From NCBI RefSeq assembly GCF_018446385.1, contig NC_055990.1:26001891-26065890 (forward strand): a stretch of DNA of 64,000 nt. Reading direction: 5' to 3'. The notes below the pieces were generated by a model. The model had not been told where the DNA came from. It searched no databases and saw nothing but the letters and a program-made list of their open reading frames with translations. Positions 1 to 40,915 of this stretch are shown here, piece by piece. Each line of letters starts with the position of its first letter. Positions within the stretch are counted from its first letter, which is position 1. A program made the translations under genes and the position numbers. The stretch comes from Zingiber officinale. Lineage: Eukaryota; Streptophyta; Magnoliopsida; Zingiberales; Zingiberaceae.

Positions 1-526
1 GGCAAACTATTGTTCGACAATTACATTTTCATCATTAGAACGTAGAAGATTTAAATTATTGCCTTGAAGGGGATTATGAAAGTTAAGGCTCATTTCCTTC
101 CCTACGTTTTGTTTCTGTAAAAATGAATTACAAATTTTCTTTTCTTTATAATGTATCCAATAAGATAAGAAACTTATTCTCCTGATATTTTGTTTCGACA
201 TAAGGTCTATTGGCCAACTTATTGAGTTGACAACTAGTTCAAAAAATCAACATGGCTTTATTGTTTCGCAAACATTCGCCAAGTGATCCAATTCCTTGCA
301 GCACAAGTATCTCAGCTATCATAACTCTTCCGTAAGTTAATTCAGGTGGTCTTGTTTTATCAAAAACTAGAGGGTTTCAATTGACTTACACCCCACCTAT
401 GTATCATCTTAGAAATCACATAAATGTTGATTGCCTTATTTGATGGATGTCTACAAATACTTGTTATGGCCAGTCCCTCTTCATTTTACTCTCAATTGCT
501 AACTTCCTAGGTTCTGTAATGTGCAG

Positions 527-1676
527 ATCTTAAGTTATCTCGATGACAGGGTTAGGGTGCACAAGGAGACAATCAACTTTTGCAAGGATGTTTTGCAGCG
601 CAAGTCCATCAATTGGGAACCTTTACTTCGTAACAATTTATCTCAACCGGTTCGTCATGTTGATCTAGTGATAACTGTTGGTGGGGATGGCACTCTTTTG
701 CAGGCTAGTCACTTTCTTGATGACTCTGTTCCAGTCTTAGGAGTGAATTCAGACCCTACACAAGCTGACGAGGTCAGCTTAGAATCTGTCTAAATGGATA
801 TATTTGCTAACAATTGTTTTTATTATTTCATTTATTAAGTTTTGTCAATCGATATTGTTTCTTTTGATTGTTCTATTTATGTAGGTTAACGCATTCAGTA
901 ATGAATTTGATGCGACTAGAAGCACTGGATATCTCTGTGCTGCTACTGCCGGAAACTTTGAGCAGGTTAAACTCTTAATATCAATTCTTCAATCTCTTCA
1001 ATTTTATTATGCTACTTATGCTAATTTGATTCCCTAAAGCTTATGTTTTTTAATTCTTTGTAGGTGCTGGATGAAATTCTTGAGGGCCACAAACTTCCTT
1101 CCCAGCTCTCAAGGATATCAGTAAGCTTAAATGGGCATTGCTTACCCACCTATGCACTGAATGATATTTTAGCTGCACATCCTTGCCCAGCCTCAGTTTC
1201 TCGATTTTCATTTCGGTACGATATGTTCCTACGATTCCAAACTAACTCTCTTGAAAGCTTTTCCTACTTCTCAACATCTCAATTCCTTGCTCTGCAGAAT
1301 CAAAAGGGATGCAGAAACGAGTTCGCGGTTAGTTAACTGCCGATCAAGCGGCCTTAGAGTCTCGACTGCAGCAGGATCGACAGCAGCGATGCTCTCAGCT
1401 GGAGGTTTTCGTATGCCATCCTCGAGCAACGTGCTTCAGTACATGGTGAGGGAGCCGATCTTGCTCAGCCCTGTAGAGAGTCCATGGCTGCACGGATCGA
1501 TAGAACCGGATCAGTCGATGCAGATTGCATGGTATAACCAAGAAGGTGTAATATATTTTGACGGCTCACATGTTCAGTACTCAATTCAGCATGGAGATAG
1601 CATTGAATTATCAGCATTGGCTCCCATTTTGAAGGTTTATTTGTCACAGCGAGAATCAACAAATGACATCTTTTGA
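527..1676 (+). CDS. NADK3: NADH/NAD kinase, NADK3-like, copy 1 (exons 2-5; exon 1 lies before the window)
   Basis: Phosphorylates NAD(H) to NADP(H) with ATP. It resembles the plant NADK3 group, known in Arabidopsis as a peroxisomal NADH-preferring kinase. Coding exons read as 527-772, 885-965, 1064-1215 and 1298-1676, and positions 1-526 are the end of intron 1. The exons join in frame across GT-AG introns; intron 4 starts with GT at 1216-1217. Visible motifs are the ATP/NAD-kinase GGDGT signature in exon 2, then LGVNSDP, and the conserved block SGLRVSTAAGSTAAM in exon 5. With exon 1 as seen in copy 2 the protein would be 321 aa, close to the 317 aa of the Arabidopsis protein. The C-terminus ends STNDIF and has no obvious PTS1 tripeptide, unlike the SRY end I recall for Arabidopsis NADK3, so peroxisomal location is not supported here. 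HSFA4 follows on the same strand about 0.7 kb on. Confidence 0.9.
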
Positions 1677-1844
1677 GACGTATGATCTCTGTTGAACAGA
1701 AATGGCATGAATTCATTTTTTTAAATGTTTAAATGATGTATTTAAAATAACGGTAAATTGCAATATAATTTTATCGTCTCAAACTTTGATGAATTAAATA
1801 CTAAGGTAATATTCCTCCTAAAATTTCAGTTTATGTGGTAAAAG

Positions 1845-1920
1845 ACGATTCGCTCGCCCCTAATATTCCCGTTAATTCGTCCCTAAGTTAATACGGAGGA
1901 GATGTGACTATTAGTTTTAG
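1845..1920 (-). repeat. SINE-like remnant, copy 1
   Basis: The stretch carries CCCGTTAATTCGTCCC and AATACGGAGGAG followed by GACTATTA. This is the same word order as the 3' part of the better preserved tRNA-related SINE candidate at about 51010-51195. Only the tail part is recognisable. It lies between NADK and HSFA4. Identical in copy 2 at about 24010-24085. Low confidence because the match is short. Confidence 0.3.
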
Positions 1921-2039
1921 AAGGTATGTGTGAATGAAGTTTAGTTATACTGACTTGAAAAATAGAATTTTACATTTATCTTATACTTGAATAAAACTAA
2001 TTTTTTCCAAGGAGTTGTATGAAAAATACTTTCCTTTCA

Positions 2040-2410
2040 CAGCTTAACCACAGAGCAAAGCGTACATAATCCCCGTTGACTGTTCTATGAGAAGCAAAGA
2101 GCTTCCATATCCACAAATCCGCAGAGAGAGAGAGAGAGAGAGAGCGCAGCGTGGATCGGAAAGGAGGTGATTTCTCTTCATCTTCTTCCTCGTCGCTCTT
2201 CGACGTCATCCTATTCTCCGCCTCAGCCGCCGCCGCCGCCGTTTCTGTCGCCGCCGCCGCCGTTCCTCATCATAAGGATCGGAACTGTCATCGAATCCTC
2301 GCTTCTTGCTTGATGCGTGGAAAAAGAAGACCTTTGTTGGCCCTTTTGAGGAGGCGATAGATAGCGGATCGGTTGGCGTTCCTGGATTTCGCCCTAATTT
2401 TTGCGCTGGA
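2040..2410 (+). promoter_or_regulatory. HSFA4 copy 1 proximal promoter / 5' leader
   Basis: The 370 bases upstream of the HSFA4 start hold a W-box-like TTGACT at about 2076, a (GA)11 tract at 2123-2144 and two GCC-repeat runs at about 2228-2262. GA/CT tracts and GCC runs are common in plant 5' leaders. The frame of the HSFA4 start stays open upstream to about 2306 but has no ATG there, so the ATG at 2411 is the start used here. No clear TATA box was seen. Confidence 0.45.
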
Positions 2411-4390
2411 ATGGAGGACGCAAGGGGGAACTCGAATTCCCCTCCCCCTTTCCTCGTCAAGACCTACGACATGGTGGACGACCCCACGACGAACTCCGTG
2501 GTCTCGTGGAGCCCCTCGAATTCGAGCTTCGTGGTGTTGAACCAGCCGGAGTTTGCCAGGGAATTGCTCCCCAAGTATTTCAAACACAATAATTTCTCCA
2601 GTTTTGTGAGGCAACTTAACACCTATGTAAGTGCCACCATCCTTGTAAAAGCCTCTCCTTTTCAATTGGAGCCTTACTGTTCTTCAGTTATAGTTTGTAT
2701 TCTGTTTGATTAATTGCCTCAGTTGGATTAACCTACTTTACTATGATAATTGCATGATTCATAGCCAAACAATTTGTTGATCAGAGAAAACAGAGAGTGG
2801 AGCTTTCGTATTAATTCTTTATGGTTTCAAATAGAAAAAGTGTTTAGAAGTTCTCAACCAATTAGATACTGAGTTTTTGTCTGGGAATTATTCAGGATAT
2901 TAATTCTTCTTTTTTCTCCATGGATTCACTTGTTCGATGGCTATTTGCATGTAAGCAAATTGGTTTAGTTGTCGTTCCTTGTAGTTAAGTTGAAATCAAG
3001 TAGGATGGAAGCTTTTCTCAAGTTGACATTATGGAAGTGTTAGGTAATAATCATCTATATGGTCAAGATAGAAGGGTTTTTATTTCCCAACATTTTAAGC
3101 TTTTTGAGTAATGATGGAACAGTTAAATCACTGACTTAAGGAAGGCGATGATCCATTGATTTATTTATCGTGTGTCACTTTGCTGCTAGATTAATATATA
3201 TGAATAAGATAAGTATCTATGAACGATCTTCTACTACTCTGGACTTTGTATTGTTTCAGTTTATACTAGGAAGAAACTCAAAAGTGTTCCTTGTGTGCTT
3301 ACCAGGGTTTCGGAAGATAGATCCTGATCAGTGGGAGTTTGCAAATGAGGATTTCATACGAGGGCGGCCGCACCTGCTGAAAAACATCCACCGACGCAAG
3401 GCAGTTCATAGTCATTCACTGAACAACCCCTCAAGTTCGTTATCTGAAGCTGAAAGACAGGAGCTTGAAGAGGAGATGGAGAAACTCAAGCAAGAAAAGG
3501 TTGTACTTTTGAATGAGCTTGATAAGCATATGCATCAGCACCATGGAATTGAGCACCAAATGCAGTCTTTAGAGGAAAGGCTGCAGGGTCTGGAAAATCG
3601 CCAAGGAAGTTTCATTGCCTTCTTGAAACAAATCGCACAGGAACCTCTGTTCCTCTCTGAATTATTACAGCAAACAGAGCTCCACTGCAGCAAAAGGAGG
3701 AGGCTACCACATATTGTGACCCTGGACGAGGATACTGAGATGGAAGGAAATCAGAATTTGGCTTTGCAGCCAATGTCTAGAGAGAAATCTTACATCGTTC
3801 CGATGCACTCACTCGACATGGAGCCTTTTGAGAGGATGGAATCATCTTTGAATTCATTAGAGAATTTCTTCAGAGGTGTTAGTCAAGCGTTTGGAGATGA
3901 CATGTCATACGATAGTGTTGTCCCTTTGCCTTCTGATGTAATTGCTACCGAGACTAATGCATCGACAGTGGAGACTGATGGAAACCTTCAACCTTCTTCA
4001 CTTCCAGCGATAGGTATCCACTCCTCTCCAGATATAGTTGAACGTGCTAACTATGTAGAAAATCAAACAGATTCAAGGGGTAAAGTATCAGGGATAGATA
4101 TGAATTTAGAACCTGCTGCGACTGAGGTTAACTCATCAAGAGATCAATTCACGGGGACGACAACATCATCTAGAGTGCAAACTGGTGCAAACGATGTGTT
4201 CTGGCAACAGTTTCTTACAGAGAATCCGGGTTCTTCTGATACACAGGAAGTTCAGTCCAAAAGAAGGGATTCAGATGACAAACAAAGCGAAGGAAAGACG
4301 CAAGAGCAGCAAAACACTTGTTGGAACAGGGAAGAAATCAATCATCTCATGGTAAAAATTGGGAATCTGACTTCAGTAGAGAAAGCCTGA
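2411..4390 (+). CDS. HSFA4: Heat stress transcription factor A4, copy 1 (frameshifted at exon 2)
   Basis: Class A heat stress factor; binds heat shock elements as a trimer and activates transcription in the nucleus. Exon 1 is 2411-2626 (72 codons, starting [10 protein letters not shown]) and ends at the intron position typical of plant HSFs, inside the DNA-binding domain after LNTY. Exon 2 is 3306-4390 and carries the rest of the domain, a heptad-repeat oligomerisation region, the basic motif KRRRLP, the acidic-aromatic activator motif [13 protein letters not shown] and a C-terminal LMVKIGNL export-like motif. The last two fit subclass A4. Odd point: exon 2 here is 1085 nt against 1086 in copy 2. 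The first codons read GGTTTCGGAAGATAG, so splicing at the usual CAG shifts the frame and stops after about four codons. Copy 2 reads GGTTTTCGAAAGATAG and stays open. This is either a null allele or a homopolymer sequencing error. Confidence 0.88.
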
Positions 4391-5200
4391 TGTCAACTAC
4401 ATGCTTTGATTGTGAAGTAGAACTCGGTAACCATAAATTGTATCTTGTTCAATTACCTTACTTGCCTTGTTGGCCAGGAAGCAACTTCTAGCTTCGATCA
4501 CCAATGTATTTTTCGATGTGCTTCCTACAGCACCTGCATTTACCCTGAGTCCATGTCAAGTATCGCGCATTCTTTCAGAACGATCAGTACATGTTCAAGT
4601 TGAATCCTTTCATTTGTAACCACTGATAGCAAAGGGCAGAAGCTTATTAAGTTTAATTATGTAAAGCTTTTCGTCGTTCCCATGAGTGAATTATGCATAT
4701 ATGTCTCAAGAATTGTATGTTTCATTTGAATAAGTCTCAAAATGATAGTTGTAAAGTAAGATTCAAGAACATTGGAATAATTGAGACTTTTTTTATGTAA
4801 TAATTCTGCTGTTTAAGACTCGCTAGATCATGCTTTGCTGGTGAAATGATCCATCGCATTTTTGGATTTTGTATATTTATTTATTTTCAAATTAAATAGG
4901 AGAGTGATCGTTGGACTGAATTTAATAAAATAAACACGAGCTGGGCAAACAGAATCGAATAAAACAAGCACGAGGCAAGCCGTTGGACATTCGTGGTGAC
5001 TAACACGTGGTGGGGGCCAGTACCGCAGAGGTTGACTGCATGGCTCCAGCTGGCACGAGACAAGGCACCTGGCTTCGTATCGACCTCATTGATTAATTTT
5101 TCAAAAATATTTTGACCACTACATTTTTGTCATTCAATGGTTGTTTATGATTTGTATAATAAAGATTTAAAATTTATATTCATATTTGAAAATTAAGATA
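4391..5200. other. HSFA4 3' region and spacer
   Basis: AT-rich sequence after the HSFA4 stop; I see no further open gene. The first 250-350 bases are probably the HSFA4 3' untranslated region. A G-box CACGTG lies at 5004-5009 and may belong to the regulatory region of the MIR156 locus downstream. Nothing else is recognisable. Confidence 0.4.
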
Positions 5201-5759
5201 AATTATTTTTTAACAGAAAATGGAGATACTTGAATTGAAAGGACACTTCGCCTCCACTGAGTTTGTCGAAATTACAGGACCCAATTACGCCGCTCATCCA
5301 ACTGCACAGCAATCACAACAGGGGTACGAATAGGGGTAGCTTATGCTCGCATTCCGTAGGCACAAGGACATATTCTGTGTTCTGCAGGGTAACACGACGG
5401 AGACTATCCGACGCAATTTTCTGACAATGCACAGGACCACCACCGCACTCTCTCTCTCTCTCTCTCTGACAGCAGGGGCCCACGCAGAAGAAGCTGGTTC
5501 CGATACCCCGGCGCTGCGGGTACAGATACGCGTAAACGTCTCCCGCACACCATTGATCGTACGGCGCGGAGACGTACGCCATACAAATCAGGACCAATGG
5601 ACGGTCGACAACGTCGTCATTCCGCCAAAACCCACAGATATTTTATTTTAACAAATAGTTAAAAGCCTTTTCATTCCCCGTCGTCATGTTTCTTCGTAAT
5701 TAATTATAGCCCAACGTAATTAGAAATCACTAACCACCTGACCAGGTTCATTGAATGGG

Positions 5760-5790
5760 CGACACGTGGGAGAGGCGAACGATAAAAGGA
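5760..5790 (+). promoter_or_regulatory. Putative MIR156 promoter elements (G-box and TATA-like), copy 1
   Basis: A G-box CACGTG sits at 5763-5768. A TATA-like GATAAAAG follows at 5781-5788, about 220 bases upstream of the miR156 sequence. Further up, at about 5450-5470, is a CT microsatellite. The spacing suits a transcription start shortly before 5820. The assignment is inferred from position only. The same elements occur in copy 2 at about 27930-27955. Confidence 0.4.
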
Positions 5791-5816
5791 TCCGGCGGGC
5801 GGAGGCGGGCGAGGAG

Positions 5817-5939
5817 ATGCAACTTCGCCTTGCCCTAGAATTGGACGCAGCCAGAGACGATGACGGTGGAGGCTTTAAGGCTATGGATTCTTCTTCCTCT
5901 CTTCATCTTCATAGTCCCGTTTCCTTATATGATCTTTGA
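5817..5939 (+). CDS. 40-aa ORF in the 5' part of the MIR156 primary transcript, copy 1
   Basis: First ATG downstream of the TATA-like box; it begins MQLRLALELDAARDD and ends PVSLYDL before TGA, about 70 bases upstream of the miR156 sequence. Short first ORFs in plant primary miRNA transcripts have been reported to encode regulatory micropeptides. Whether this one is translated is unknown. It is identical in copy 2 (27984-28106), but the copies are so similar that this says little about selection. It matches no family I recognise. Confidence 0.25.
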   Translation: MQLRLALELDAARDDDGGGFKAMDSSSSLHLHSPVSLYDL

Positions 5940-5986
5940 TTCGATCTATTTTAGTTGATTTTTTGGTTGCATGGACGGAGGCGATC

Positions 5987-6106
5987 GGCCGGGGTCGTGT
6001 TTTGGGTTGACAGAAGAGAGTGAGCACACGGCGGGGAGGGCATCGCGGCGGTGCTGTTGCTGTGGCGTGCTCACTTCTCTCTCTGTCATCTCCATCTCCC
6101 CGGGCC
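5987..6106 (+). ncRNA. MIR156: MIR156 precursor hairpin, copy 1
   Basis: The 5' arm holds mature miR156, TGACAGAAGAGAGTGAGCAC, at 6008-6027. The 3' arm holds the star strand, GCTCACTTCTCTCTCTGTCA, at 6069-6088. They pair with the small bulge usual in this family. The lower stem continues, with GGCCGGGG at 5987-5994 facing CCCCGGGCC at 6098-6106, around a loop-side region of about 40 nt. miR156 directs cleavage of SPL/SBP-box transcripts and keeps plants in the juvenile phase; it is also linked to heat-stress memory. No protein gene lies here: the open frames on both strands around 5880-6300 are by-products of GC-rich sequence. The primary transcript probably runs from about 5800 to beyond 6500 and may be spliced, for example at AGGTACGC near 6540. 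Repeated exactly in copy 2. Confidence 0.95.
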
Positions 6107-7130
6107 GGCGGCGCTGAGGGAAAACTAACAAACACGGTTCCTTTCGTTTCCCCTTTGGAGCTGATATACGAAAAGAATGGGGCGGTATCTCCATGCGATG
6201 CATCGGGGGAGGACACGCGTGGCGTGGACTTGGTCTCACTTATCTTGTATCAGCCATCAGCTTCTCTGTGGCCGAGACGTCTCGTCCGATTGGGTTAAAC
6301 CCGAGGTAGGGGAAGCTGTGTATCATTTTATGGCATGGCAGTCGTAGGGCGTAATCGTTTTGGGGACTCGATTAACTTTTCTTCGTCCTAATAAACGTTG
6401 TTTGAAAATTCTAAACTCGATAGATCAGACCGAAGAAATGGGAAAAATGGAATTTTTTTTTTCAGGTGGATTGGCGTGTGCAAGCGTGACTTTTGAGATG
6501 AAGAATACTCTGGAACGAGATTGGATAAGGATTCAGAGGAGGTACGCATAACATCCCTATCTGTATCCCCTGCCTCTTGTGCGGATTTAACGGATGTCAC
6601 TGTTAACCTTGTTCACTACTCCAGTTCTTCGTCTTCCTTCCGCTTCGACTGTCTTCTTCATTTTTTTTTTTTTTTTTTTTATTTTCTGGATTCTTCCCGG
6701 CTTGCTTTCTACTATGTCTTTAGGACTTTCTCTCATGGCCTGGCCTCGAGAAGCATCGATCGCCATTTCCTAGTAGATCTTCTTTCTCTTTCCTACAAAA
6801 TGATATATTTTCCTTTTTCTTGTGCTTCCCAAGCATTTTTTTCTTGCTAGATCTGATGTTATTTCTTGTTTTTTATTAATTTAAATTGTAAGAAGTTGAA
6901 GCTTGCTTCGGATATGTTGCTACTCCACGATTTCTTGGTCGTTTGCTGCATTCTTGGTCCATGGTGAAGCAAGTTGAGGAAGCAAGCGCATCTGAATGGG
7001 GCTTTCGTTCCTTCGTTCAAACGTGTTGGGTGGAACACTTGGATCGCTCGAGGTATGCAATAGGTTCTTTTCCACCGTCGTCTGATTTTATGTATTTTTC
7101 TCTACCAACTTTTATAATTCTGTGAGGTGG
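6107..7130 (+). other. Probable 3' part of the MIR156 primary transcript, copy 1
   Basis: Downstream of the hairpin the sequence stays mixed in composition, with a T-run at 6661-6680 and possible donor sites at about 6541 and 7052. Short open frames occur here but none shows a known domain or a coding pattern kept across frames. I read it as non-coding primary transcript or its introns. There is no direct evidence for its 3' end. Confidence 0.35.
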
Positions 7131-8960
7131 AAGTTTATGGTTCTTATGAAGAAAATATGCTGACTGGTAAAAAAACTTGTCAATTTTTTCTTTAGCCGCA
7201 TATTTGATGTCATTTCACCTCTTTGATGAATAACACTAAAGAATTGCAATAAATGTCGAACTGTATGATCATGAAGAGAAGACTGTAGATAGGTTTATTC
7301 TGTAATTTTCTTTAACCAAGAAAATGTAAAGCAATTATGTTGAGATGATCCAGTCTAGGTAGATTTTCTGAGTGACTAAGCTTTTCAACCTGAATGTAGA
7401 ATCCAAAGTAATTATTATTTTTATTTTTCGATCAAACAATAACTAGTAGGGATGCATTTAATCAGTTTTGATTCTTTTTTGTATGCCGTTAAGAATACAG
7501 TAATGTGAGCTATGCCATCATTATTCACCATTCCTTAAGTTTATTTTGCTTTAGTTGCTTGGTTTTCAAATTCATAGATTCTTATTCCTAAAGTTCCTTT
7601 GATTAAGTTTGTCAACATTTCCACAAGGTATAGATCTCCACCATCAATGAAAACACTTAATGACTCTCAATAATGACGATTTAACAAAACCAAATGGACT
7701 ATAGAAGAAGTTTGTCATCGAAGAGTTTAGTACAGCTACCAATAACTTAATTAGAACAAAGTTTTGCAATTTATATATTCTTCCATTTAAGTAACTACTG
7801 TTCTTTTTTGTTTTGATCTTGTTGAGAATACTTTCAATCTTTACCATCGTAATTCATCCACTAGAAAGGGTATTTTCTAGGTTATGCACAATACAAGGGC
7901 AGCCCTTATTCTAAGTATCATTTCAGACAAATGATCTTACTTACCTTTTTAGCCGTTGATTCTGATCCTTTCACTAGTAATAATCTCCTGATTAGAATTT
8001 TGCACTAAGATGTCAGGGATGATAAAAATACTAAGACTAATCATTTATTCAAAAAAAATATAAGTTAACCATTGGAAATGTAGAGTTTAAAAATATTGTT
8101 GAAAGTCTTCTAGTGTCAGTAGTACTAATATCCAAACCTCCTTATCCCTCCCTCATTATTGTTAAAACTCATTTGTGCAATCTCAGCTACTCATTTGTTT
8201 TGCCCAAGACATGAATTTTCATTTTAATTATTTTTATTCTCTTTGATTGCATATTGAATCGAAGCTAGGTTATGATGAAATGTTGATCAAACACAATGCT
8301 AGAAGATGTAATAGTAGCAAGTTTCTCAACTTTAATCATAAATATGGCCATGAACAAATATGGATGTGAGATTGTTGTCTCATATTTTGCTTCGGATTTT
8401 TAATACAACTATTACTATAACGATGAAAACACCAACACCAACACATGCAGGGTAAACTTCTATCTGAAATTGTGATATATAAAAGCCAGATAGAATAAAG
8501 AACAGTCAAAGCTACGAAAAACATTAGGGAAACTAAAGTAGCAGGCGCACAAAGATAAATAACTGTCAATTGAGTTTGTAAAACCGTGAAAATAACTCAC
8601 ATCGATACTTTTTAAGGGTCCAACTATTACTTTAGCCAGAAAAAAACCAAACTTAATACATGCAGTGTAAAACCGTGAAAATAATCTCACAATTCAAAAG
8701 GCAGAAACTGTTGCATATAACAACAAAAATAAGAGTATCTTGAAAAGGAAAAAAACTTGAGGGGCACTTCAGCAATTTGTATATCAATTGTAGCATTGTA
8801 ACATTTGTATATAACAAGATGATAGTTGGTGGTTCAATTATTGGAGGAAGTGGCTGCAGATGGGAGGTGATCGAGTGAGGCATGAATGGAGGAGAAAGTG
8901 GCATGTTAGGGAGTACTTGAAGACTGTGTGATAATGAGATGGCAAGACTGACGTCGGGTA
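7131..8960. other. AT-rich spacer, no gene seen
   Basis: About 1.8 kb of AT-rich sequence. Open frames are short, on both strands, and match nothing known. One local direct repeat of about 19 bases (GTAAAACCGTGAAAATAA) occurs near 8577 and 8668. The same stretch is present in copy 2 at about 29297-31127. Confidence 0.4.
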
Positions 8961-9639
8961 TGATAGCGATCATCCTATGGGCTGACAAGAAGGGGGTTTG
9001 AGGAGAAGACAAAAAGAGATAATTATTGTCCTCAGCTCTTTTTGAAAAAAAATTATTTAATATTCGAGAATTATTTCTTAAACAACTAAATACATATTTA
9101 TATTGACTTTAAACCCTAAGACCCAAAGAAAGGAAAAAAAGTCCTAATATATAGACTTCAATTCTTATCTTGTTGAGAAAGGAAATGAATTCTAAAAAAA
9201 GAAAAATTTATTAACATATCACAATCCTAAAATTCCTAAACATACTCAAAATCTTAAATACAAAAAAATAAAAATTATCAAAAATACCTTAAATACAAAA
9301 TTATCAAAAATAATAAAAAAAATATTCCGATCCTCATCACCTCGGGTTGGAAATAACTTATCTTCAAATTTAGAGTAGTATCAGGTGGTAGCCCAGGAGG
9401 AACATCATTTGGACTTTCGTCATTTGCATTATCTTTATGATCACCTTTTACCAAATGTCAAATTGATCTACTTGTAGCATGTTCATGATTCTTCTACTAT
9501 TTTTGTTGATGACATATGCAGTCTCTTTTAGTGAATTAATGTAGCTCCATTTCACAAGTTTTTCACCTTTACAAGGTGTCAAAACTTCTCCAACATACTC
9601 TCTAAAATGTCTAAAATGGAACATTAGATTCTATGACCT

Positions 9640-9845
9640 TTCTGTCAAATTCGAGCCATAGTTGGATTGTTACTTGGTTAGAACCTCTGGTGAATGCCAA
9701 ATGCATGGATTTGCCATGGCCTTGAATTTCTTGGCTGGTGAGAGCCCAAAATCAATGATCTTCTCTTGCAGAGGAAGGGTTTCTCACTTTCACCTAGATG
9801 TTGAGAGGATTCAAGTCCCCATGGTAGATCTTCTTCGGTTGGAGG
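9640..9845 (-). pseudogene. Protein kinase gene fragment inside the gypsy-like element, copy 1
   Basis: On the minus strand three kinase subdomain signatures appear in order: KKIYHGDLNPLNI (catalytic loop), KIIDFGLSPAKKF (DFG motif) and ANPCIWHSPEVL (P+1/APE region). The HGDLNP form recalls a plant serine/threonine kinase group with an N-terminal DUF1221-type region; that assignment is from memory and uncertain. Only about 70 codons remain, in more than one frame and with stops, so it cannot make a kinase. It lies directly beside the HSP90 fragment, which suggests both were carried by the same element. Confidence 0.55.
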
Positions 9846-9849
9846 TCTA

Positions 9850-11818: not shown

Positions 11819-12218
11819 GGGATGTAAATGAGCCAAGCCGCTCGTGAACTATTCGAAGCTCGATTCGATAAAAGCTCGTTTGAGCTCATTTAATGAGGCT
11901 CGTTAAGATAAACAAACCAAGCTCAAGCTTTACATATTCGGCTCGTTAGCTCGTGAACATGTTCGTTAAGCTCATGAATCAATTTTTAAATAAAAAAATA
12001 ATAGTAATATTGAATTTATAGATTTTACACTTCACTTATGAAAAACATAGATAAATATATTAAATTTATTTATTAGAATAAAATTATAAACTTTAACAAG
12101 AATATTATAATTTTTTAAAATATATAATTTAGTTTTTTAATGAATATTTAAATTTATAATTTATATTTATTAAGCTCGTTTAAGCTTGATAAAAACTCGA
12201 ATAAGCTCGTGAGCCATA
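11819..12218. mobile_element. Short terminal-inverted-repeat element, copy 1 (right end deleted)
   Basis: Begins GGGATGTAAATGAGCCAAGC and is full of GAGCTCG/AGCTCGTT words on both strands, a known style of plant miniature DNA element. Copy 2 keeps the whole element (33984-34475), whose right end GCTCGATTACACCCC mirrors the left end. Here about 107 bp are missing, including the right terminus and the left edge of the next repeat. The superfamily is uncertain. A TA dinucleotide flanks both ends in copy 2. Confidence 0.6.
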
Positions 12219-12220
12219 AT

Positions 12221-15589: not shown

Positions 15590-16960
15590 AATCTTGGGTG
15601 CTTGCTAACTGAACTCGGGTGTTTGCTAACTCTTCTTTGCCTTCTAGTTGTTGCTCTGGTTCAAGCTTTTTATGCAATGCTGCGTTAATTAATCTGGATG
15701 CGGTGGCATTTGAAGAAGTGGACCTAACTAACTTTGATCCACTTCCAAGTCCTCTAATATATCCGCAATGAGTACCAAGGACCTGATGTAGCTTAACAAT
15801 AAAATACCAAGTTATGAAAATTTAATTCAAGAATGAAAGATAACCATAACGAGATGTGCAAGTACATGAATCTTGCTAAAAGTAGTGACCAAACAAGTTA
15901 TACTGGATTATACGACATTCTCCTTCACAAGTAAATGACACTTGTGCATATACCATGTATGAAAAAAAGATGAATATAGGCTTTTACATTTCAAGATGAT
16001 GCAGAATATACTAAATGCTTCATATGAGGTGTATGTTAATATAGAACAAACGTGTTGGCTAGAGTTTTAATACTAAGTCACCAAAACAATACAAGTTTTG
16101 AAGATAATAAACATATGATATGATGATATCTTGAGCATGCAGATAAGGTTTAACTCATCTGGGTATCTCAAATGACCAACATGGAACAACCTAACAAAAT
16201 GAGTATCGTGGACCTGATCACAAATTATATCCTCAATTTGGACTGCATCGATGACATTTTCTGTATTTTCTTGTATTTGAACATACTCATCACAGTCTCA
16301 CCATATCATCCTAGAAATAATAAACATATAAAAAATATCATAAAAAATAATTATGCAAAGTTAAGAATCACTAAATAAGATCATAGCATACATATACGAT
16401 TTCGACCCTCTCCCCAATCTACCCTTTTGACGAGTTATAATGAATTTCATTAAAGACAATAATCCGATCTTTTCTTTGTGACTTGATCAGTTTGAAAAAA
16501 AAAATGTGATACTATTTTAATGAACACAATATATGATAATTATAAAATTCGCACTTACACCGTCGTAACAATATTGAATGAAGGATTTAGAACCTCTGCG
16601 ATGGTTATATGAGAGTTTCTCTCAATTTTTAATAGTTGTTGCAGATCTTTTCTATGACGCAAAATTTTGCATAAATAAAACATTAGTTAAAGAATAAATA
16701 ATTAATTTTTTTTAATAAAAAAGACATTTGTTATAGAATGAGTTAACCTGAAATGCCTCTTATTCAAACAGAGTACACATGTAGTCCCAGTTATCTTGCG
16801 TCTTACAAAACTCGATCGACATATGTTGTCAGCGCTCAACAAGAGGAAGGTGCAATAGCTTCTTATAATGACTATGCATTTTAATTATATTGTCTCTATA
16901 CCTTGTACTCATTAACCGATCGGTCTCCTTTCTGACTAACGATGAACCATCTTAAAAACT
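15590..16960 (-). pseudogene. CACTA transposase-associated protein remnant, copy 1
   Basis: Two minus-strand stretches are readable. The first, about 16960-16780, includes RKETDRLMSTRYRDNI and HYKKLLHLPLVER followed by WDYMCTLFE. The second, about 15785-15600, includes LGTHCGYIRGLGSGSK and SSNATASRLINAAL. These resemble the plant transposase family PF03004 (Transposase_24) usually found in CACTA elements. Frames are broken in between, so the element could not move without help. I saw no TNP2-type catalytic region in this copy. Confidence 0.55.
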
Positions 16961-17109
16961 GATATCAAAAGTAGCTTGAAAAAAAATAAACTTATTTATT
17001 TTGCATGTGGTTAGTAATAAAGGAGTGGTTATAAATATGTTGAATTAGTTGTACTTACTGATAATTGATCATATATCATCTTTTTATTATTCGTGAGGAC
17101 GACTTTTAG

Positions 17110-18605
17110 GTTATAAGGGAGCTGATCCTGTCCAAAAGTCAAAGAGACGAAAAGCTGGGGATGTGGTGCTCACGCTGACCTTCTATGGACTTCGCGCGGA
17201 CCTGCAACACAGATGTCAGTGCCGAGCCAGGGAAGGGATCCCGGCGTTGGCCCTCCGACGTTCAAGTCAGTCACCGGCGATGAAGTGGAAAGCGAAGCAA
17301 CAAGAAGACTACTGTAGCGTAAACAATGAATATCGCATACCTCCGCTGTTGCTTGGACCCTCCTTTATATAGAGCTCCGGTAGCGCATGTACACACTTCC
17401 TAAGGCGAGCACGCTTCTCAAAGCTTTCCCTGACAAGACTTGTCAGTAAAGTGTCCCTGACGCAGTATCTTAACGGGCCGAGCATATTTCCGAAGTGACA
17501 GTGGAACCTTCTGCCATACGAACTTCTGGCAGCTCATGCCCGGTGTTGGCGACACCAATTCCCAAAAGGATGTTGAGGGATATCAACGTACTGTACCACT
17601 AGGCCGAGCGGGTTGGTCCCTCGGCCGTCCATTCGTCGCTCTGGTGCCCCGTCCGATCGGCCAGAACCTTGGTACTCCTAGTCTGCTTGAACGAAGTTTC
17701 ACTCTACCACTATCGAGTCCTGCTGTCAAGCCCAGCGGGGTAGCTGCTCGGCCGAAGTTGAACTCTGTCAATGTCAGGCTTTGCTGTCTGGCCGAGCGAG
17801 GTAGTCGCTCGGCTCGACTTCTGCTACCCCGCTCGGCTCGACTTCTGCACATCGTTCTCCCTTGGGCGTTAGTTGTTTGAATGCTCCTCGTGTCGAAGGC
17901 GACGGCGGGTCGAAGACTTCTCCCCGATTGGGGCATACTTCGCCCGATTGGCCGATGCCACCTACGCGTTGAGCGCCTTGACTTTGACCTCCTTTGACCT
18001 CCACCGTGGCAGTGGTGTGGGGCCCTTCATCATCACTGCATCACAAGTCTCCCCCTCAAGTCTAGTCGAAGGAGGCTGTAAGTTTGACTGACTGAACAAT
18101 TGTCTGAGCAGATTTCCTCCCGATCGACCTTCGACACTGTGTGGTTTCTGATCGGGATGTGACCGTTCCTTGCCGATCAACCTGTTGAAGCTTGTTGTTC
18201 GGGCGTAGGTTTGCTCCCTTGATCCGATTGGAACGACGAAGGTTTTCACTTGTGAACTCTTTCCTTGGGCTGTCTTGTGCGAGCGCGAGTCAAGCTGACG
18301 TCACCCATATTTCTGGGAAATCGTGTAAATCTCTGTGCATTAAGGCTGAGCGCGCTCCCATGCTGTCATTAAATGTCGACCCATAGCGATGTGCCACGTG
18401 TCCTACCCCTGCCGCCACACGCTTGACATGACAGGGTACCGATGTGATGTTTGACAGTTTAAATTCAGCGGTCAGATCTCACCCTAGGTTTCAGCGACCT
18501 AGATCGGACGGCTCCGGTCGGCCGACCCCAGGCTTATAAGCCCGTGTGTGTCACCGTCTTTGCACATTTCGCCTTCGTGCTCTTTGGTGCTGCTCGTTTC
18601 ATGCT
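17110..18605. mobile_element. GC-rich LTR-type retroelement nested in the CACTA, copy 1 (incomplete)
   Basis: Composition changes sharply from AT-rich to GC-rich at about 17110. The stretch holds a TATA-like CTTTATATAGAGC at about 17370 (readable on the minus strand as CTCTATATAAAG) and a second one, GGCTTATAAGCCC, at about 18530. The contig stops at 18605 inside what copy 2 shows to be one arm of an inverted repeat. Copy 2 continues into a gag-like reading frame. Compared with copy 2, this region is much more diverged than the rest of the duplication. Confidence 0.6.
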
Positions 18606-18705
18606 NNNNNNNNNNNNNNNNNNNNNNNNNNNNNNNNNNNNNNNNNNNNNNNNNNNNNNNNNNNNNNNNNNNNNNNNNNNNNNNNNNNNNNNNNNNNNNN
18701 NNNNN
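18606..18705. other. Assembly gap of 100 N
   Basis: Exactly 100 unknown bases, the conventional size for a gap of unknown length between contigs. The sequence to the left ends within a repeat. The sequence to the right begins upstream of GAUT exons whose 5' partners are absent. Confidence 1.
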
Positions 18706-31127: not shown

Positions 31128-31807
31128 ATGATAGCGATCATCCTATGGGCTGACAAGAAGGGGGTTTGAGGAGAAGACAAAAAGAGATAATTATTGTCCT
31201 CAGCTCTTTTTGAAAAAAAATTATTTAATATTCGAGAATTATTTCTTAAACAACTAAATACATATTTATATTGACTTTAAACCCTAAGACCCAAAGAAAG
31301 GAAAAAAAGTCCTAATATATAGACTTCAATTCTTATCTTGTTGAGAAAGGAAATGAATTCTAAAAAAAGAAAAATTTATTAACATATCACAATCCTAAAA
31401 TTCCTAAACATACTCAAAATCTTAAATACAAAAAAATAAAAATTATCAAAAATACCTTAAATACAAAATTATCAAAAATAATAAAAAAAATATTCCGATC
31501 CTCATCACCTCGGGTTGGAAATAACTTATCTTCAAATTTAGAGTAGTATCAGGTGGTAGCCCAGGAGGAACATCATTTGGACTTTCGTCATTTGCATTAT
31601 CTTTATGATCACCTTTTACCAAATGTCAAATTGATCTACTTGTAGCATGTTCATGATTCTTCTACTATTTTTGTTGATGACATATGCAGTCTCTTTTAGT
31701 GAATTAATGTAGCTCCATTTCACAAGTTTTTCACCTTTACAAGGTGTCAAAACTTCTCCAACATACTCTCTAAAATGTCTAAAATGGAACATTAGATTCT
31801 ATGACCT

Positions 31808-32013
31808 TTCTGTCAAATTCGAGCCATAGTTGGATTGTTACTTGGTTAGAACCTCTGGTGAATGCCAAATGCATGGATTTGCCATGGCCTTGAATTTCTT
31901 GGCTGGTGAGAGCCCAAAATCAATGATCTTCTCTTGCAGAGGAAGGGTTTCTCACTTTCACCTAGATGTTGAGAGGATTCAAGTCCCCATGGTAGATCTT
32001 CTTCGGTTGGAGG
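31808..32013 (-). pseudogene. Protein kinase gene fragment, copy 2
   Basis: Counterpart of 9640-9845, with the same HGDLNP, DFGLSP and SPEVL signatures on the minus strand. Non-functional fragment inside the gypsy-like element. Confidence 0.55.
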
Positions 32014-32017
32014 TCTA

Positions 32018-32480
32018 ACTCAACACAGTCGTGTTGCGGTGGTGCAAGATGACTTTGCTCCACCAGTCGCTAGGCTCTAGGCACCACCGAACATATTGCT
32101 CATCGTCACTGTGTTTGGTCTTCACCACGATTCGCTTAGCAATGAAATACGCAGAATAAAACCCCACACTGAACTGGCCAATCATGCCGATGTCAGCCCA
32201 GCAGCAAGTGCCTCCATGAATTCCTTGGTGCCAAATTGTGCAATGGTACTGATCAGACTTTGTCATGCCGATACTTTTGTCAACGATGGACAAAGTGTAT
32301 GTGGCCTTGTCGGGGATGATATGGATGAAGAGCTCTGATTGTGCATCGAGCTCGCTCTTGTCAGTTTGGCTCTCAAATCAGATCGCATCGGAGAAGTTGC
32401 TAATGAGCTCGCGAAGGAAGAGCTCCTTATCGGAGTAACATGAGGCTTAGAAGCTAGTTGATCTCCGTCTCGGCCGCCAT
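32018..32480 (-). pseudogene. HSP90 N-terminal domain fragment, copy 2
   Basis: Counterpart of 9850-10312. It starts MAAETEIN at 32480 and keeps IGMTKSD, GQFSVGFYSAYF and KHSDDEQYV. Non-functional fragment covering part of the ATP-binding domain. Confidence 0.75.
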
Positions 32481-33983
32481 GATTGACCCCAACGAGAAGA
32501 ACAATTTAGAATTAGAGAAGAATGAGATCAAATGATGTGATGACGTTAGCAAGGGCGAGACGATGGGGATTGGGGCTTCGTCAATAGAAAAACCAAGCTG
32601 CTGATTGTCGTCAGACAAGGTGGCCTTTTGGTCTTCGATTAACGCTTTGTCTAGGTCTCTCCTCTTCATTAGGATCTTCCACAACTTACATGTTAGGTTA
32701 ATCAAGTTCTTCTGGGTGATGATCTTGTTGTTCTATACCTAATAAGTCCGAGCTTAAAACAAAGTCTTTCATAGGATAGGTAAATCTTGAGCGCCATTAA
32801 TAAATTTATCTAATTCCATCAGTCAATCCTTGGAAATCAAGAAACCCTCTCAAACGATTAAAGTCTTAGGATCATCATCATAAAGTACCTCGTCAACTTC
32901 TTCCTCCAAATCATTTTCGAACTCGTCAAGGTCATCTTGGGCGTCAAAGCTATCGCCCTCCATGGTAAACCTAATTATCCTTGGAATGAAGTTTGAGTGT
33001 ACCCATAAAGAAGAAAGTGATTTTTCATCTTTTTCTTCATCTTCTCTCAATCCTTGATATTGGTTTTGCCCTGTCTGTCTCGTGAGCGCTGCAAGTGCTC
33101 CCATTACGTCGATGCTAGACCCTTGAGTCTAATGGAAATCACTTTCACTTTCATCCGATCTGAAACTTGCTTATAGTCGAAGATCTACTTCACTTTGACT
33201 TTCTTATAGTCGAAGATCCACTCTACTTTGTTGATCCAATCAACAAAATTTTTTGTCTGTGACGTACTAAAAAATTTGGGTTGATCAACTTGACATCCGA
33301 TGTCTCTAAGTTGTTCCTCTCGATCATGTACCTCACGATCTTCAAGATTATGCGTTGTCGTCGTTACACAGGTGAAATTTGTGCTTGCTTCTGTATCGTC
33401 TTAATCTCGTCTTGGGTGCTACGACCACGGTGCGATGCTTCCTCAGTTGGAACCTATCTATCATGACCATGATCACGACTACAATGACCTTCCATTGGAT
33501 CCGATGCTCGATTGCCTCAATTGGAATGACGCTAGTTAGGATAGTGATTATCCTACTGGTTGACGAGAAGGAGATTTGAGGAGAATGCATGAAGAAATAA
33601 CCGATGTCGTCCGTATCTTTTCGAAAAAAGGAAATTTTATTTAATAATCGAGGATTATCTCTTAAACAGTTAAACACATATTATATATTCTCTAGACCCT
33701 AAGACCTAAAGAAAGGAAAAAAAAATCCTAATTTATATACTCCAATTCTTATCTTGTAAAGAAAGAAAAGGAATTTTAAAAGAAAGGAAAAATTATTAAT
33801 AGACTCACAATCCTAAAATTTCTAAACAGACTCAAAATCTAAAAAATATAAAAAATAGAAATTACCAAATATATCTTAAATACCAAAAGAATGAAAATTA
33901 ACAATAATAATAATAATCTTTGGCTAATCCTACGTCAAAGCATGACATGGATAAATCCTACTTTGATTGATTGGGTAGGAATA

Positions 33984-34475
33984 GGGATGTAAATGAGCCA
34001 AGCCGCTCGTGAACTATTCGAAGCTCGATTCGATAAAAGCTCGTTTGAGCTCATTTAATGAGGCTCGTTAAGATAAACAAACCAAGCTCAAGCTTTACAT
34101 ATTCGGCTCGTTAGCTCGTGAACATGTTCGTTAAGCTCATGAATCAATTTTTAAATAAAAAAATAATAGTAATATTGAATTTATAGATTTTACACTTCAC
34201 TTATGAAAAACATAGATAAATATATTAAATTTATTTATTAGAATAAAATTATAAACTTTAACAAGAATATTATAATTTTTTAAAATATATAATTTAGTTT
34301 TTTAATGAATATTTAAATTTATAATTTATATTTATTAAGCTCGTTTAAGCTTGATAAAAACTCGAATAAGCTCGTGAGCCATAAATACATTCGTTAAATA
34401 AAGCTCGAGCTCAGCTCGATTATAAACGAGCCAAGCTCAAACATCCAAGAGTTCGGCTCGGCTCGATTACACCCC
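33984..34475. mobile_element. Short terminal-inverted-repeat element, copy 2 (complete, 492 bp)
   Basis: Left end GGGATGTAAATGAGCCAAGC and right end GGCTCGGCTCGATTACACCCC are imperfect inverted repeats, flanked by TA on both sides. Many internal AGCTCG words repeat in both orientations, so the single strand could fold extensively. No coding capacity. It separates the right repeat of the gypsy-like element from the solo-LTR-like copy. The superfamily is not certain. Confidence 0.7.
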
Positions 34476-34780
34476 TAGGTAGGATACTAATTATCCTGCG
34501 GGCTGACGGAAGAAATAACCGATGTCGTCCATATCTTTTCGAAAAAAGAAAATTTTATTTAATATTCGAGGATTATCCCTCAAATAGCTAAACACATATT
34601 ATATACACTCTAGACCCTAAGATCCAAAGAAAGGAAAGAAACCCTAATTTATACACTCCAATTCCTATTTTGTAAAGAAAGAAAAGTAATTTTAAAAGAA
34701 AAGAAAAATGATTAACCGACTCAACATCTAAAAAAAATCTAAAAAATAGAAATATCAAATATATCTTAAATACCAAAAGA

Positions 34781-34825
<45 letters not shown>

Positions 34826-34830
34826 TTTGG
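34476..34830. mobile_element. Solo-LTR-like copy of the gypsy-like element repeat, copy 2
   Basis: Starts TAGGTAGGATACTAATTATCC, the same left edge as the repeat at about 33535. This edge was lost in copy 1. No interior sequence attached. Contains the (AAT)15 tract at 34781-34825. Confidence 0.5.
34781..34825. repeat. (AAT)15 microsatellite, copy 2
   Basis: Perfect AAT repeats, the same length as copy 1. Confidence 0.95.
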
Positions 34831-36965
34831 CTCCTGCATTAAAGACTGACATGCATAAATCCTACTTTGATCAATTGGGAAACATTTGATTATGCTTCAT
34901 GATAGATAGGGATACTGAAAGTTAACAAATGTATTAATGCAAAAGCATATGACTCGAGTGAATAGGTGAAGAAGAGGGAAGAGAGGCCAGGAATGTGAAG
35001 AAAATAAAGATGGGGAAGAAATATGAAGGTTGAAGGAAGACGATTAGTGTGGAAAAGGTCATGAAACAAGTTTGATTTGAACTACAATTGCTGCAGAGAA
35101 GATTTACATATCAAGCAATCCTTGTGGCCAAAAGATCATTAGAGTTTATATTGACTTTATCCCATTAGGCCATGAGTTTATTGGGATCGTCTGTTAGGAT
35201 AGTAATATTTATGGGGTCTGTATGGATAGTATTTTTGTATGGATTCTATTAGAGCTCATGAGGATCCCTTCCAAAGAAGAACACTAATCTATATAGCTCC
35301 CGAGTAACGTACATCACCAACCAACTCTAAAGTAGCCTTACTTACAATTACTGATTCACTAAAGAAAGTGATCTGGTTACTTGATCTAAGACAAATAAAA
35401 TTACTCAGCAAGTATATTATTGCACTTTGAGCCTGAATGAGTTTTTGATTGATGATTTAGCTGAAAATTGGTCGGCAAATGTATCCTTACTATCAAATAT
35501 ATAATATATTATTTAGCTCATGGCAAATTTTGCAGTTTCAAGTTGTCCTAAAAGTTTTAGTCTCTGATTGGAGCAATGTAATTTCGGAACCCTGTTATAG
35601 TGCCAACTTATAATGCCAGTAGTAAATTAGGGATTGAAGGGGAAAGAAACAGAGAGAGAGAGAGAGAGAGAGAAGGATATAATAGATATGATATATAAAT
35701 TGGTTTCTAAAAAGAATTGTAGTTCTTCAATATCTTTTCACTTAGGCTATTTACTTGTGAAAACGAGAGTATAATAAGTAGATAACTAATCGATTTAAAA
35801 TTTATTATAGTATGTCGTACAAGTACTTGACAATACTTGATATGTTTATGCATTCGTTATAGTTAACCTACACATATTTATTCATCTTATTTAGAGTTTT
35901 TTTACTTTTAATAATATTATATCAAATAATAGTTGAATTTAAAATATTGTTTATTTTATTTTTACTTTGCCGAAGTGAATACGTATTAATTTTATTTCAC
36001 TTCACTTATTTGCTAATAAAAATACAACTATAAGAATTAGATCATCAATTGAATTTAAACTTTAGAAGAACAAACTAATATGAATTTATGTTGAAGAGTG
36101 TGATAACATGGCAAAGCCTGTTGATCGCCTATACGACAAGATGCTTTTTTGTTGATATTGAAGAGTGTGCTGATTAATATTGAGTTTTGATGATTTATCG
36201 AAGTAATATATTTTAATCATATCCCTAGTCAATTAAGTCACAAGCAAAAGATTTGTCATCCTAAGATTTAGGCATGCATATTAAGGAATGGTTAAATGAG
36301 CTCCATCACTTTTGGAGCATTAGCATTTATTTTTGTTTTTTTTAGAATGGGTGCATAGAAATTCTATCAAATAGTATTGCTAGCAACGGATCAAAAAGCT
36401 AGAAGGCAAAGTGATTTTTTTATCGCTATATACACTATTGATCCTTGTTAATTTGTTGGAAAGATCATTGAAGTTGATTCTAGAAGAGACAAATTGACTA
36501 ATTAGATAGTGGAGTTGCAGAGGAACAGACTGAATTAAAGAAGGCGTGCAAGTTTCTGAAATATGTTGAAGATATGCCCATCTTGACTGTGTAATCTGAC
36601 TAATTTTATTGCTTTTCAGTTATTTTGAGTATGACATTTAAGGTAAGATGTCTGGGGAAGAGATCCAAAAAAAAAAAGGGAAAATTAACGGCTAAATTCT
36701 AGGTTTCTAGCCTCACAAACTAACAATTCATACCAAATACCGTGTCAAACAACTATGTAGATGTCGGAATTATTCACTGTGAATCTGTGATTCGGAAGGG
36801 CGTAAACATGGCAAACAATGTTGTTTTCCCAAGGTGGACGAACACATTTGCATGTAAAGCCACTGTTGCTATATCATCATACTAGTAGGCTTCATGGCGC
36901 ATGTAGAGACAGTTTGGCAAGAAGACTCAAATTGTCTTGAACAACTCTAAGGCATACTTTCAGTA
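34831..36965. other. Spacer without recognisable gene, copy 2
   Basis: Counterpart of 12566-14703. A GA tract lies at about 35650-35672, after which the copies differ. The last 35 bases before the CACTA element (GTCTTGAACAACTCTAAGGC and following) have a second, related copy to the right of that element at about 45273. Confidence 0.4.
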
Positions 36966-37859
36966 CACTACAGGAAATATGTGATTTAGCGGCAAATTAT
37001 TTTGTCGCTAATAAAACAATTTTCGTCGCTAAAAGAACATAGCGACGATAAATATTCACCGCTAACATCATCGCTATAGGCTTGTCGTAAACCATATTTA
37101 GCGACAAAAGCTAAGATTTCGTCGCTAAGATTAATGACATAACATAAACTGTTGTCAAGATGGTCATAATTGCTGCTAATATTCAACTAGGTTAGTGACG
37201 AATTGGCGCATTTTTGCCACTAAATCCATCCCTGTTAGCGACGAATTGGCGTATTTTCATCGCTAAATCTACCTCGGTTAGCGATGAATTACACAAAATT
37301 TGTCACTATTCATGGTCTAGTTTCACGATGAATCATGGATAATTCGTCGCTAACCATTTAAAAAAAACCTAGTAGCTACAATATGTTTCGATAACCCAGG
37401 TCCCATATAAGGAATTAGCGACGAATTCCCATTAATTCGTCACTAATACTCTTTATTAGCGACGACTTCCGATAAATTCATCACTAACACTATTTTTTTA
37501 AAAATAATTTTATTTATGTATATTAATATCCTATATACAAATTTATAACTCACAACAAAGTCACAACATTCACAAATTTTACCAACTCATAGCATTCATA
37601 AATTTGTACTCATACTTTACAACATTCACAAAACATTATAAAGTTAACAACTCTAACAACGAGTAACACAAGAAAATAAAGTTCACATCCAAATTCATAA
37701 CTTTAACAACAAGTTCACAACATCGAATTCTAACGTGGAGGAGGAGGAGATGGAGCTGAAGAGAAATCATGGATCAAGGATTGTAATGCTCAGGTGCCAA
37801 TCGGTTAAGAATTTGTTCAAACATATTTTGTCTTGATCTTATTAATGTCAACTAATCTT

Positions 37860-39240
37860 GGGTGCTTGCTAACTGAACTCGGGTGTTTGCTAACTCTTCT
37901 TTGCCTTCTAGTTGTTGCTCGGTGGATTCAAGCTTTTTATGCAATGCTGCGTTAATTAATCTGGATGCGGTGGCATTTGAAGAAGTGGACCTAACTAACT
38001 TTGATCCACTTCCAAGTCCTCTAATATATCCGCAATGAGTACCAAGGACCTGATGTAGCTTAACAATAAAAATACCAAGTTATGAAAATTTAATTCAAGA
38101 ATGAAAGATAACCATAACGAGATGTGCAAGTACATGAATCTTGCTAAAAGTAGTGACCAAATCAAGTTATACTGGATTATACGACATTCTCCTTCACAAG
38201 TAAATGACACTTGTGCATATACCATGTATGAAAAAAAAGATGAATATGAGGCTTTTACATTTCAAGATGATGCAGAATATACTAAATGCTTCATATGAGG
38301 TGTATGTTAATATAGAACAAACGTGTTGGCCTAGAGTTTTAATACTAAGTCACCAAAACAATACAAGTTTTGAAGATAATAAAACATATGATATGATGAT
38401 ATCTTGAGCATGCAGATAAGGTTTAACTCATCTGGGTATCTCAAATGACCAACATGGAACAACCTAACAAAATGAGTATCGTGGACCTGATCACAAATTA
38501 TATCCTCAATTTGGACTGCATCGATGACATTTTCTGTATTTTCTTGTATTTGAACATACTCATCACAGTCTCACCATATCATCCTAGAAATAATAAACAT
38601 ATAAAAAATATCATAAAAAATAATTATGCAAAGTTAAGAATCACTAAATAAGATCATAGCATACATATACGATTTCGACCCTCTCCCCAATCTACCCTTT
38701 TGACGAGTTATAATGAATTTCATTAAAGACAATAATCCGATCTTTTCTTTGTGACTTGATCAGTTTGAAAAAAAAAATGTGATACTATTTTAATGAACAC
38801 AATATATGATAATTATAAAATTCGCACTTACACCGTCGTAACAATATTGAATGAAGGATTTAGAACCTCTGCGATGGTTATATGAGAGTTTCTCTCAATT
38901 TTTAATAGTTGTTGCAGATCTTTTCTATGACGCAAAATTTTGTATAAATAAAACATTAGTTAAAGAATAAATAATTATTTTTTTTTAATTAAAAAGACAT
39001 TTGTTATAGAATGAGTTAACCTGAAATGCCTCTTATTCAAACAGAGTACACATGTAGTCCTAGTTATCTTGCATCTTACAAAACTCGATCGACATATGTT
39101 ATCAGTGCTCAACAAGAGGAAGGTGCAATAGCTTCTTATAATGACTATGCATTTTAATTATATTGTCTCTATACCTTGTACTCATTAACCGATCAGTCTC
39201 CTTTCTGACTGACGATGAACCATCTTGAAAACTAATATCA
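37860..39240 (-). pseudogene. CACTA transposase-associated protein remnant, copy 2
   Basis: Counterpart of 15590-16960, with LGTHCGYIRGLGSGSK and SSNATASRLINAAL on the minus strand, similar to PF03004. Frames are broken. Not functional. Confidence 0.55.
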
Positions 39241-40004
39241 AAAGCAACTTGAAAAAAAATAAATTTATTTATTTTGCATGTGGTTAGTAATAAAGGAGTG
39301 GTTATAAATATGTTGAATTAGTTGTACTTATTGATAATTGATCATATATCATCCTTTTATTATTCGTGAGGACGACTTTTAGATTAAGGGAGCTGATCCG
39401 GTCCAAAAGTTGAAAAGACGAAAAGCTGGGGATGTGGCGCTCACGCTGACCTTCTATGGACTCCGCGCGGACCTGCAACACAGACGTTAGTGCCGAGACA
39501 GGGAAGGGATCCCGGCGTTAGCCCTCCGACGCTCAAGTCAGTCACCGGCGATGAAGTGGAAAGCGAAGCAACAAGAAGACTACTGTAGCGTAAACAATGA
39601 ATATCACATACCTCCGCTGTTGCTTGGACCCTCCTTTATATAGAGCTCTGGTAGCGCATGTGCACACTTCCTAAGGCGAGCACGCTTCTCAAAACTTTCC
39701 CTGATAAGACTTGTCAGTAAAGTGTCCTTGACGCAGTATCTTAACGGGCCGAGCATATCTCCGAAGTGACAGTGAAACCTTCTACCGTACGATCTTCTGG
39801 CAGCTCATGCCCGGTGTTGGCGACACCAATTCCCAAAAGGATGTTGAGGGATATCAACGTACTGTACCACTAGGTCGAGCGGGTTGGTCGCTTGGCCGTC
39901 CATTCACCGCTCTGGTGCCCTGTCCGGTCGGGCAAAACCTTGGTACTCCTTGTCTTCTTGAACGAAGTTCCACTCTACCACTATCGAGTCCTACTGTTAG
40001 GCCC

Positions 40005-40127
40005 AGTGAGGTAGCCGCTCGGCCGAAGTTGAACTCTGTCGATATTTGGCCAAGCGGGGTAGCCGCTCGGCCGAAGTTGAACTCTGTCGATGTTTGGCCA
40101 AGCGGGGTAGCCGCTCGGCTCGGCTTC
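40005..40127 (+). repeat. 48-bp tandem repeats in the nested element
   Basis: About 2.5 units, each containing GGTAGCCGCTCGGCCGAAG and AACTCTGTCGAT. Copy 1 (about 17730-17850) has fewer and more altered units, so the array length differs between copies. Confidence 0.75.
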
Positions 40128-40734
40128 TGCACATCGTTCTCCCTTGGGCGTCAGTTGTTTGAATGAGACGGGTCGAAGACTTCTCCCCAATTGGGGCATG
40201 CTTCGCCCGATCAGTCGATGCCACCTACGCGTTGACCGCCTTGACTTTGACCTCCTTTGACCTCCACCGTGGCAGTGGGGTGGGACCCTTCATCATCACT
40301 GCATCACAAGCCTCCCCCTCAAGTCTAGTTGAAGGAGGCTGTAAGTTTGACTGACTGGACAATTGTCTGAACAGATTTCCTCCCGATCGACCTTCGACAC
40401 TGTGTGGTTTCTGATCGGGATGTCACCGTTCCTTGCCGATCGGCCTGTTGAAGCTTGTCGTTCGAGTGTAGGTTTGCTCCCTTGATCCGATTGGAATGAC
40501 GAAGGTTTTCACTTGTGAACTCTTTCCTTGGGTTGTCTTGTGTGAGCGCGAGTCAGGCTGACGTCACCCATATTTATGGGAAATCGTGCAAATTTCTGCG
40601 CATTAAGGCTAAGCGCGCTCCCATGCCGTCATTAAATGCCGACCCATGGCAATGCGCCACGTGTCCTGCCCCTGTCACCGCACGCTTGACGTGACAGGGT
40701 ATCGATATGACGTTTGGCGGTTTAAATTCATCGG

Positions 40735-40915
40735 TCAGATCTCACCCTAGGTTTCTGCAACCTAGATCGGATGACTCCGATCGGCCGGCCCCCAGGCTTA
40801 TAAGCCCGTGTGTGTCGCCGTCTTTGCACATTTCACCTTCGTGCTCTTTGGTGCTGCCCGTTTCGTGCTCCGACGACCTTCCCCTACTGCTCCTCCGGTG
40901 ATCTCCCCCCAGTAG
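40735..40915 (+). repeat. Left arm of a ~180-bp inverted repeat
   Basis: Contains GGCTTATAAGCCC, GCACATTTCACCTTCGTGC and GTGATCTCCCCCCAG. The reverse complement of this stretch lies at 44395-44585. Contig 1 ends inside the copy 1 version of this arm. Confidence 0.85.

Follow-up and report, generated by a model that had tools for sequence, protein, structure and literature searches.

False duplication is a known type of assembly error, and two of its described forms lie closest to the locus considered here. In the homotype form, as described by the Vertebrate Genomes Project, overlapping sequence at contig boundaries becomes, after scaffolding, a tandemly duplicated sequence with a gap (PMC8081667); the same source describes that the contig ends produced by overlap assemblers can overlap at graph branches. 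In the heterotype form, both alleles are found within one copy of the assembly (PMC8081667, PMC9516828). The marks of false duplication given in PMC9516828 include gaps between the duplicated pairs and lowered read depth.

For diploid ginger, one described assembly recipe combines ONT reads, SMARTdenovo and wtdbg2, Pilon, 3D-DNA misjoin correction and Juicebox review (PMC8342452). That assembly took 3.09 Gb into scaffolding and is described as 3.1 Gb in its final form, with 22 pseudochromosomes (the longer partner being called A), 219 scaffolds, 577 gaps and 39.18% GC. A second ginger assembly, haplotype-resolved and from another cultivar, is described with 11 scaffolds per haplotype and a total of about 3.03 Gb (PMC8342499).

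The locus analysed here lies in a 64-kb stretch of chromosome C5 (C5:26001891-26065890; 39.3% GC), hereafter the window, in a genome of 3.09 Gb in 211 contigs. Judged from its sequence, the case has the features of a homotype, or contig-boundary, false duplication as that error is described in PMC8081667: one locus from one haplotype is represented by two copies that lie at contig boundaries, separated by a gap. It differs from that description in that the haplotype is shared to the left of 16.69 kb and not in the last 1.9 kb of copy 1, a tail that matches the other haplotype, and in that a mirrored fault is found on the partner chromosome, C6. Likeness to the heterotype form (PMC8081667, PMC9516828) is limited to this 1.9-kb tail, where the two copies do carry different alleles; over the first 20.1 kb of about 22.1 kb they do not, and the second allele, rather than being placed beside the first, lies on C6, this assembly giving the second haplotype a separate chromosome.

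Results

Self-comparison of the window aligned positions 1-12219 with 22167-34384 at 99.84% identity (11 mismatches) and positions 12217-18605 with 34488-40869 at 96.4% identity (150 mismatches). The earlier note, made from the window alone, had described a block present twice, at 1-18605 and 22167-40869, with the first copy ending exactly at a 100-N gap, and it was correct on both points. Comparison with the neighbouring C5 sequence indicated that the overlap extends further than this, as the repeat starts 3.46 kb to the left of the window: its left border lies at window position -3459 (C5:25998431) and pairs with position 18706, the first base after the gap. The overlap therefore spans 22,065 bases of copy 1 and 22,164 bases of copy 2 (about 22.07 kb). 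Both inner borders of the repeat are the gap itself, which is the sole run of N within the window; the left-hand contig has its last base at 18605 and the right-hand contig its first base at 18706. The duplication thus sits at a contig boundary with an intervening gap, as in homotype false duplication, and does not have the gap-independent borders of a true tandem duplication. We refer to the C5 contigs to the left and right of this gap as A and B, and to the C6 contigs to the left and right of the corresponding C6 gap as A' and B'. Contigs were compared using pairwise BLAST chains and three-way MAFFT alignments of shorter pieces, and the resulting features are collected in Table 1.

Table 1. 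Features of the duplicated locus, in window coordinates (negative positions lie to the left of the window).
Feature	Position	Strand	Details
Glycosyltransferase-8 exon	-2128 to -1742		Just left of the window, within the overlap; PF01501, E 1.5e-22
Copy 1, right end of left-hand contig A	1..18605 in window; begins at -3459	+	NAD kinase, HSF and MIR156 once each
NAD kinase domain	503-790		PF01513, E 6.9e-10
HSF DNA-binding domain	2276-2710		PF00447, E 3e-21
MIR156 hairpin, copy 1	6007-6089	+	Rfam RF00073, 57.4 bits, E 6.7e-11, below the gathering score of 62
Haplotype switch in contig A, from C5 to C6 haplotype	16669..16705	+	Best single switch, between the nearest deciding SNPs
Contig A tail, C6 haplotype	16705..18605	+	126/129 decidable SNPs with C6
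Scaffold gap, 100 N	18606..18705	.	Boundary of contig A and contig B
Copy 2, left end of right-hand contig B	18706..40869	+	Glycosyltransferase-8 (GAUT-like) exon, then NAD kinase, HSF and MIR156 again
About 104 bases, 3' end of an insertion	34385..34487	+	Insertion partial in copy 1, absent from C6
Stretch of contig B single on C5	40870..55797	+	Doubled on C6 around the C6 gap
LRR receptor-like kinase gene, two open frames	46659..49788	-	One copy on C5, two near-identical copies on C6

The repeated block carries matches to the NAD kinase, HSF and glycosyltransferase-8 families and to MIR156. The profile matches reach the family level; NADK3, HSFA4 and GAUT are the finer names given in the earlier note. 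Comparison with NCBIfam gave only weak matches, far below the cut-offs, for two NAD kinase frames, against the NAD kinase model and a small number of others, and no match for the HSF frames. One GAUT-like open frame had no match in a PDB search and no Pfam match, the PF01501 match lying in a neighbouring frame. The GAUT-like gene in contig B is probably truncated, with its 5' part missing. An Rfam scan of the window at the gathering score gave no match; the mature MIR156 sequence is present at 6008-6027 in copy 1 and at 28175-28194 in copy 2. The HSF exon likewise recurs in copy 2 in a genome search. Based on the alignment for NAD kinase, the exon search for HSF and the positions of the mature sequence for MIR156, each haplotype has one of each gene at this locus. 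The block also contains a minus-strand open frame at 9850-10209, which we take to resemble an HSP90 fragment; its only Pfam match was DUF1221, below the cut-off.

In this genome search, the HSF exon gave 43 matches. With four second-exon rows and three rows from the studied locus set aside, 15 other HSF loci were each matched once on one chromosome and once on its partner, pairing chromosomes 1/2, 3/4, 5/6, 7/8, 9/10, 13/14, 15/16, 17/18 and 21/22; the remaining matches were a C14-C28 pair, a locus in a 2:1 state on C14/C13 and an isolated fragment on C18. Matches of a probe from 46.5-48 kb of the window indicated that C11 and C12 also pair, such that pairs were seen in all for 10 of 11. Because the HSF loci pair on partner chromosomes in this way, the assembly contains both haplotypes as paired chromosomes, with C6 (134.2 Mb) as the partner of C5 (165.9 Mb). 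The studied HSF locus was itself 2:1, matching C5 twice and C6 once. The same distribution was obtained with a 601-base probe taken from the block, which had three matches in the genome, two on C5 and one on C6 (all three first-look candidates were scored), and C6 holds a single copy of the repeated block.

Contigs A and B were nearly identical between window positions -3459 and 12219, their alignment of 15,684 columns containing 13 mismatches and 7 gap openings (99.85% identity), whereas the pieces of this stretch aligned between A and A' or between B and A' had about 1.2-2.2% mismatches. In the three-way alignment, 313 SNPs to the left of 16.69 kb were decidable; 295 of them placed A with B, and the other 18 placed it with A' on C6. 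At 13 further sites A stood alone, and one site had three states. To the right of 16.69 kb the relationship was reversed: of 129 decidable SNPs, A shared its base with A' at 126 and with B at 3. These counts cover 21,196 gap-free three-way columns. Here and in the three-way comparison around the C6 gap given below, columns with gaps are excluded, as are segments that failed to align cleanly across all three sequences (window positions 1833-2152 and 11824-12219 and, on the right side, C6 index 71665-71882, each together with its counterparts, and B 53661-53842); a single C6 base where two pieces meet was entered twice. Contig A thus follows the C5 haplotype and then ends in 1.9 kb of the C6 haplotype.

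A probe from window 16500-18000, which spans the switch, had at least 42 matches in the genome (40 of 7782 candidates were scored). Among the matches listed, 39 lay elsewhere at 77-85% identity, and 37 of these 39 began at about window position 17115-17125. The tail of contig A therefore enters a dispersed repeat, which could have caused the assembler to cross from one haplotype to the other.

The partner chromosome exhibited a fault of the same kind. A 100-N gap on C6 (C6:18678827-18678926) lies inside a 14.6-kb self-overlap, in which A' (C6:18664198-18678826) and B' (C6:18678927-18693563) align over 14,639 columns at 99.67% identity. Across 14,325 gap-free columns of A', B' and B there were 505 variable sites: A' and B' agreed against B at 469, A' agreed with B at 30, B' agreed with B at 5, and one site had three states. 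The last base of A aligns to C6:18664197 and B' starts at the base matching C6:18664198, leaving zero gap and zero overlap between a contig end on C5 and a contig start on C6. The doubled sequence was also evident from the 46.5-48 kb probe, for which three of the 18 matches listed were 99-100% identical, one on C5 and two on C6, and the next was at 87%.

The LRR kinase region has a relative on another chromosome pair, at C11:136778996 and C12:150105693 (86-87% identical), perhaps a remnant of an old genome duplication. The same part of the window contains separate copia-type retrotransposon frames on the minus strand at 52432-54406, in which reverse transcriptase scored above the Pfam cut-off and SH3-like and integrase matches below it, and a tandem array of 7.8 copies of a 37-base unit at 44108-44396.

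Differences also remained between copies of the same haplotype. An insertion of about 490 bases (window 11824-12219 and 33989-34487) was found in the C5 haplotype only and not on C6, and copy 1 has it without its last part, about 104 bases including the border; this difference is perhaps a local consensus error in A. The 18 of 313 sites to the left of the switch at which A agrees with C6 fell mostly in small clusters. Similarly, A' and B' differed by 36 mismatches; at 30 of these A' has the base of B, and most of the 30 form two patches. We read these residual differences as probable consensus noise together with local haplotype mixing near the contig ends.

Discussion

We are highly confident that the repeat is a false duplication that arose at the scaffolding stage, when overlapping contig ends from the same chromosome copy were placed end to end. 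One contig, running through A and then B', would have carried a haplotype switch near window 16.69 kb and would have been cut about 1.9 kb beyond that switch. The left piece, A, would then have been assigned to C5 and set in front of contig B, whose first 22 kb cover the same C5-haplotype sequence, and the right piece, B', would have gone to C6 behind contig A', whose last 14.6 kb cover the same C6-haplotype sequence. Both overlaps were left unmerged, giving two copies of each with 100 N between them. Because two contig ends on two chromosomes abut to the exact base, we infer that A and B' were formerly one contig. The cut was presumably made by Hi-C misjoin correction. Such a cut and such a cause agree with the recipe described in PMC8342452, which includes 3D-DNA misjoin correction.

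Two observations count against this explanation: the copies assigned to one haplotype, A with B and A' with B', are not identical, and a 2:1 state was also observed at the C14/C13 HSF locus and so is not unique to the locus studied. From the sequence alone, the labels could also be exchanged, so that B and A' each switch at one shared point and the contig made up of A and B' is unswitched; however, this would require two coincident switches rather than one.

The earlier note had proposed instead that two haplotigs were placed end to end, such that copies 1 and 2 would be the two alleles on one chromosome. We regard such an unpurged haplotype as quite improbable. The last 1.9 kb of copy 1 does come from the other haplotype by 126 of 129 sites, and to this extent the proposal stands, but across some 20.1 of the 22.1 kb both copies carry a single haplotype (295 of 313 decidable sites). 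The second haplotype, which the earlier note took to be left over at the C5 locus, has its allele separately on C6. For the block as a whole, the shared haplotype and the allele on C6 speak against the proposal. The broader claim of the earlier note, an assembly artefact at a contig join, is correct, as is its expectation of one copy of each gene per haplotype and inflated gene counts.

If the NAD kinase-HSF-MIR156 block had truly and very recently been duplicated in tandem on the C5 haplotype, with the junction in the sequencing gap, the observed order, orientation and genes and the slight differences between the copies would result. The probability of such a duplication is nonetheless very low: both copies stop exactly at the gap, the left copy changes to the C6 haplotype ahead of its own end, and the C6 contig starts at the next homologous base, none of which a real duplication predicts.

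As unmerged contig-end overlaps, these duplications call for correction of gene counts on both chromosomes: NAD kinase, HSF and MIR156 are doubled on C5, where the GAUT-like exon is also repeated, and the LRR receptor-like kinase is doubled on C6. Studies of allele-specific expression and copy number of these genes would be misled, because reads would be split between near-identical copies. Other gaps in the assembly may conceal the same fault.

Two further HSF loci had an unusual arrangement. An HSF relative occurs twice, 28 kb apart, at C14:60605340 and C14:60633635 and once at C13:73243304, and the two C14 copies are either genuinely tandem or the product of a similar assembly fault. The HSF locus at C14:98089938 has its apparent second allele at C28:65156-65869 rather than on C13, and C28 is probably an unplaced contig.
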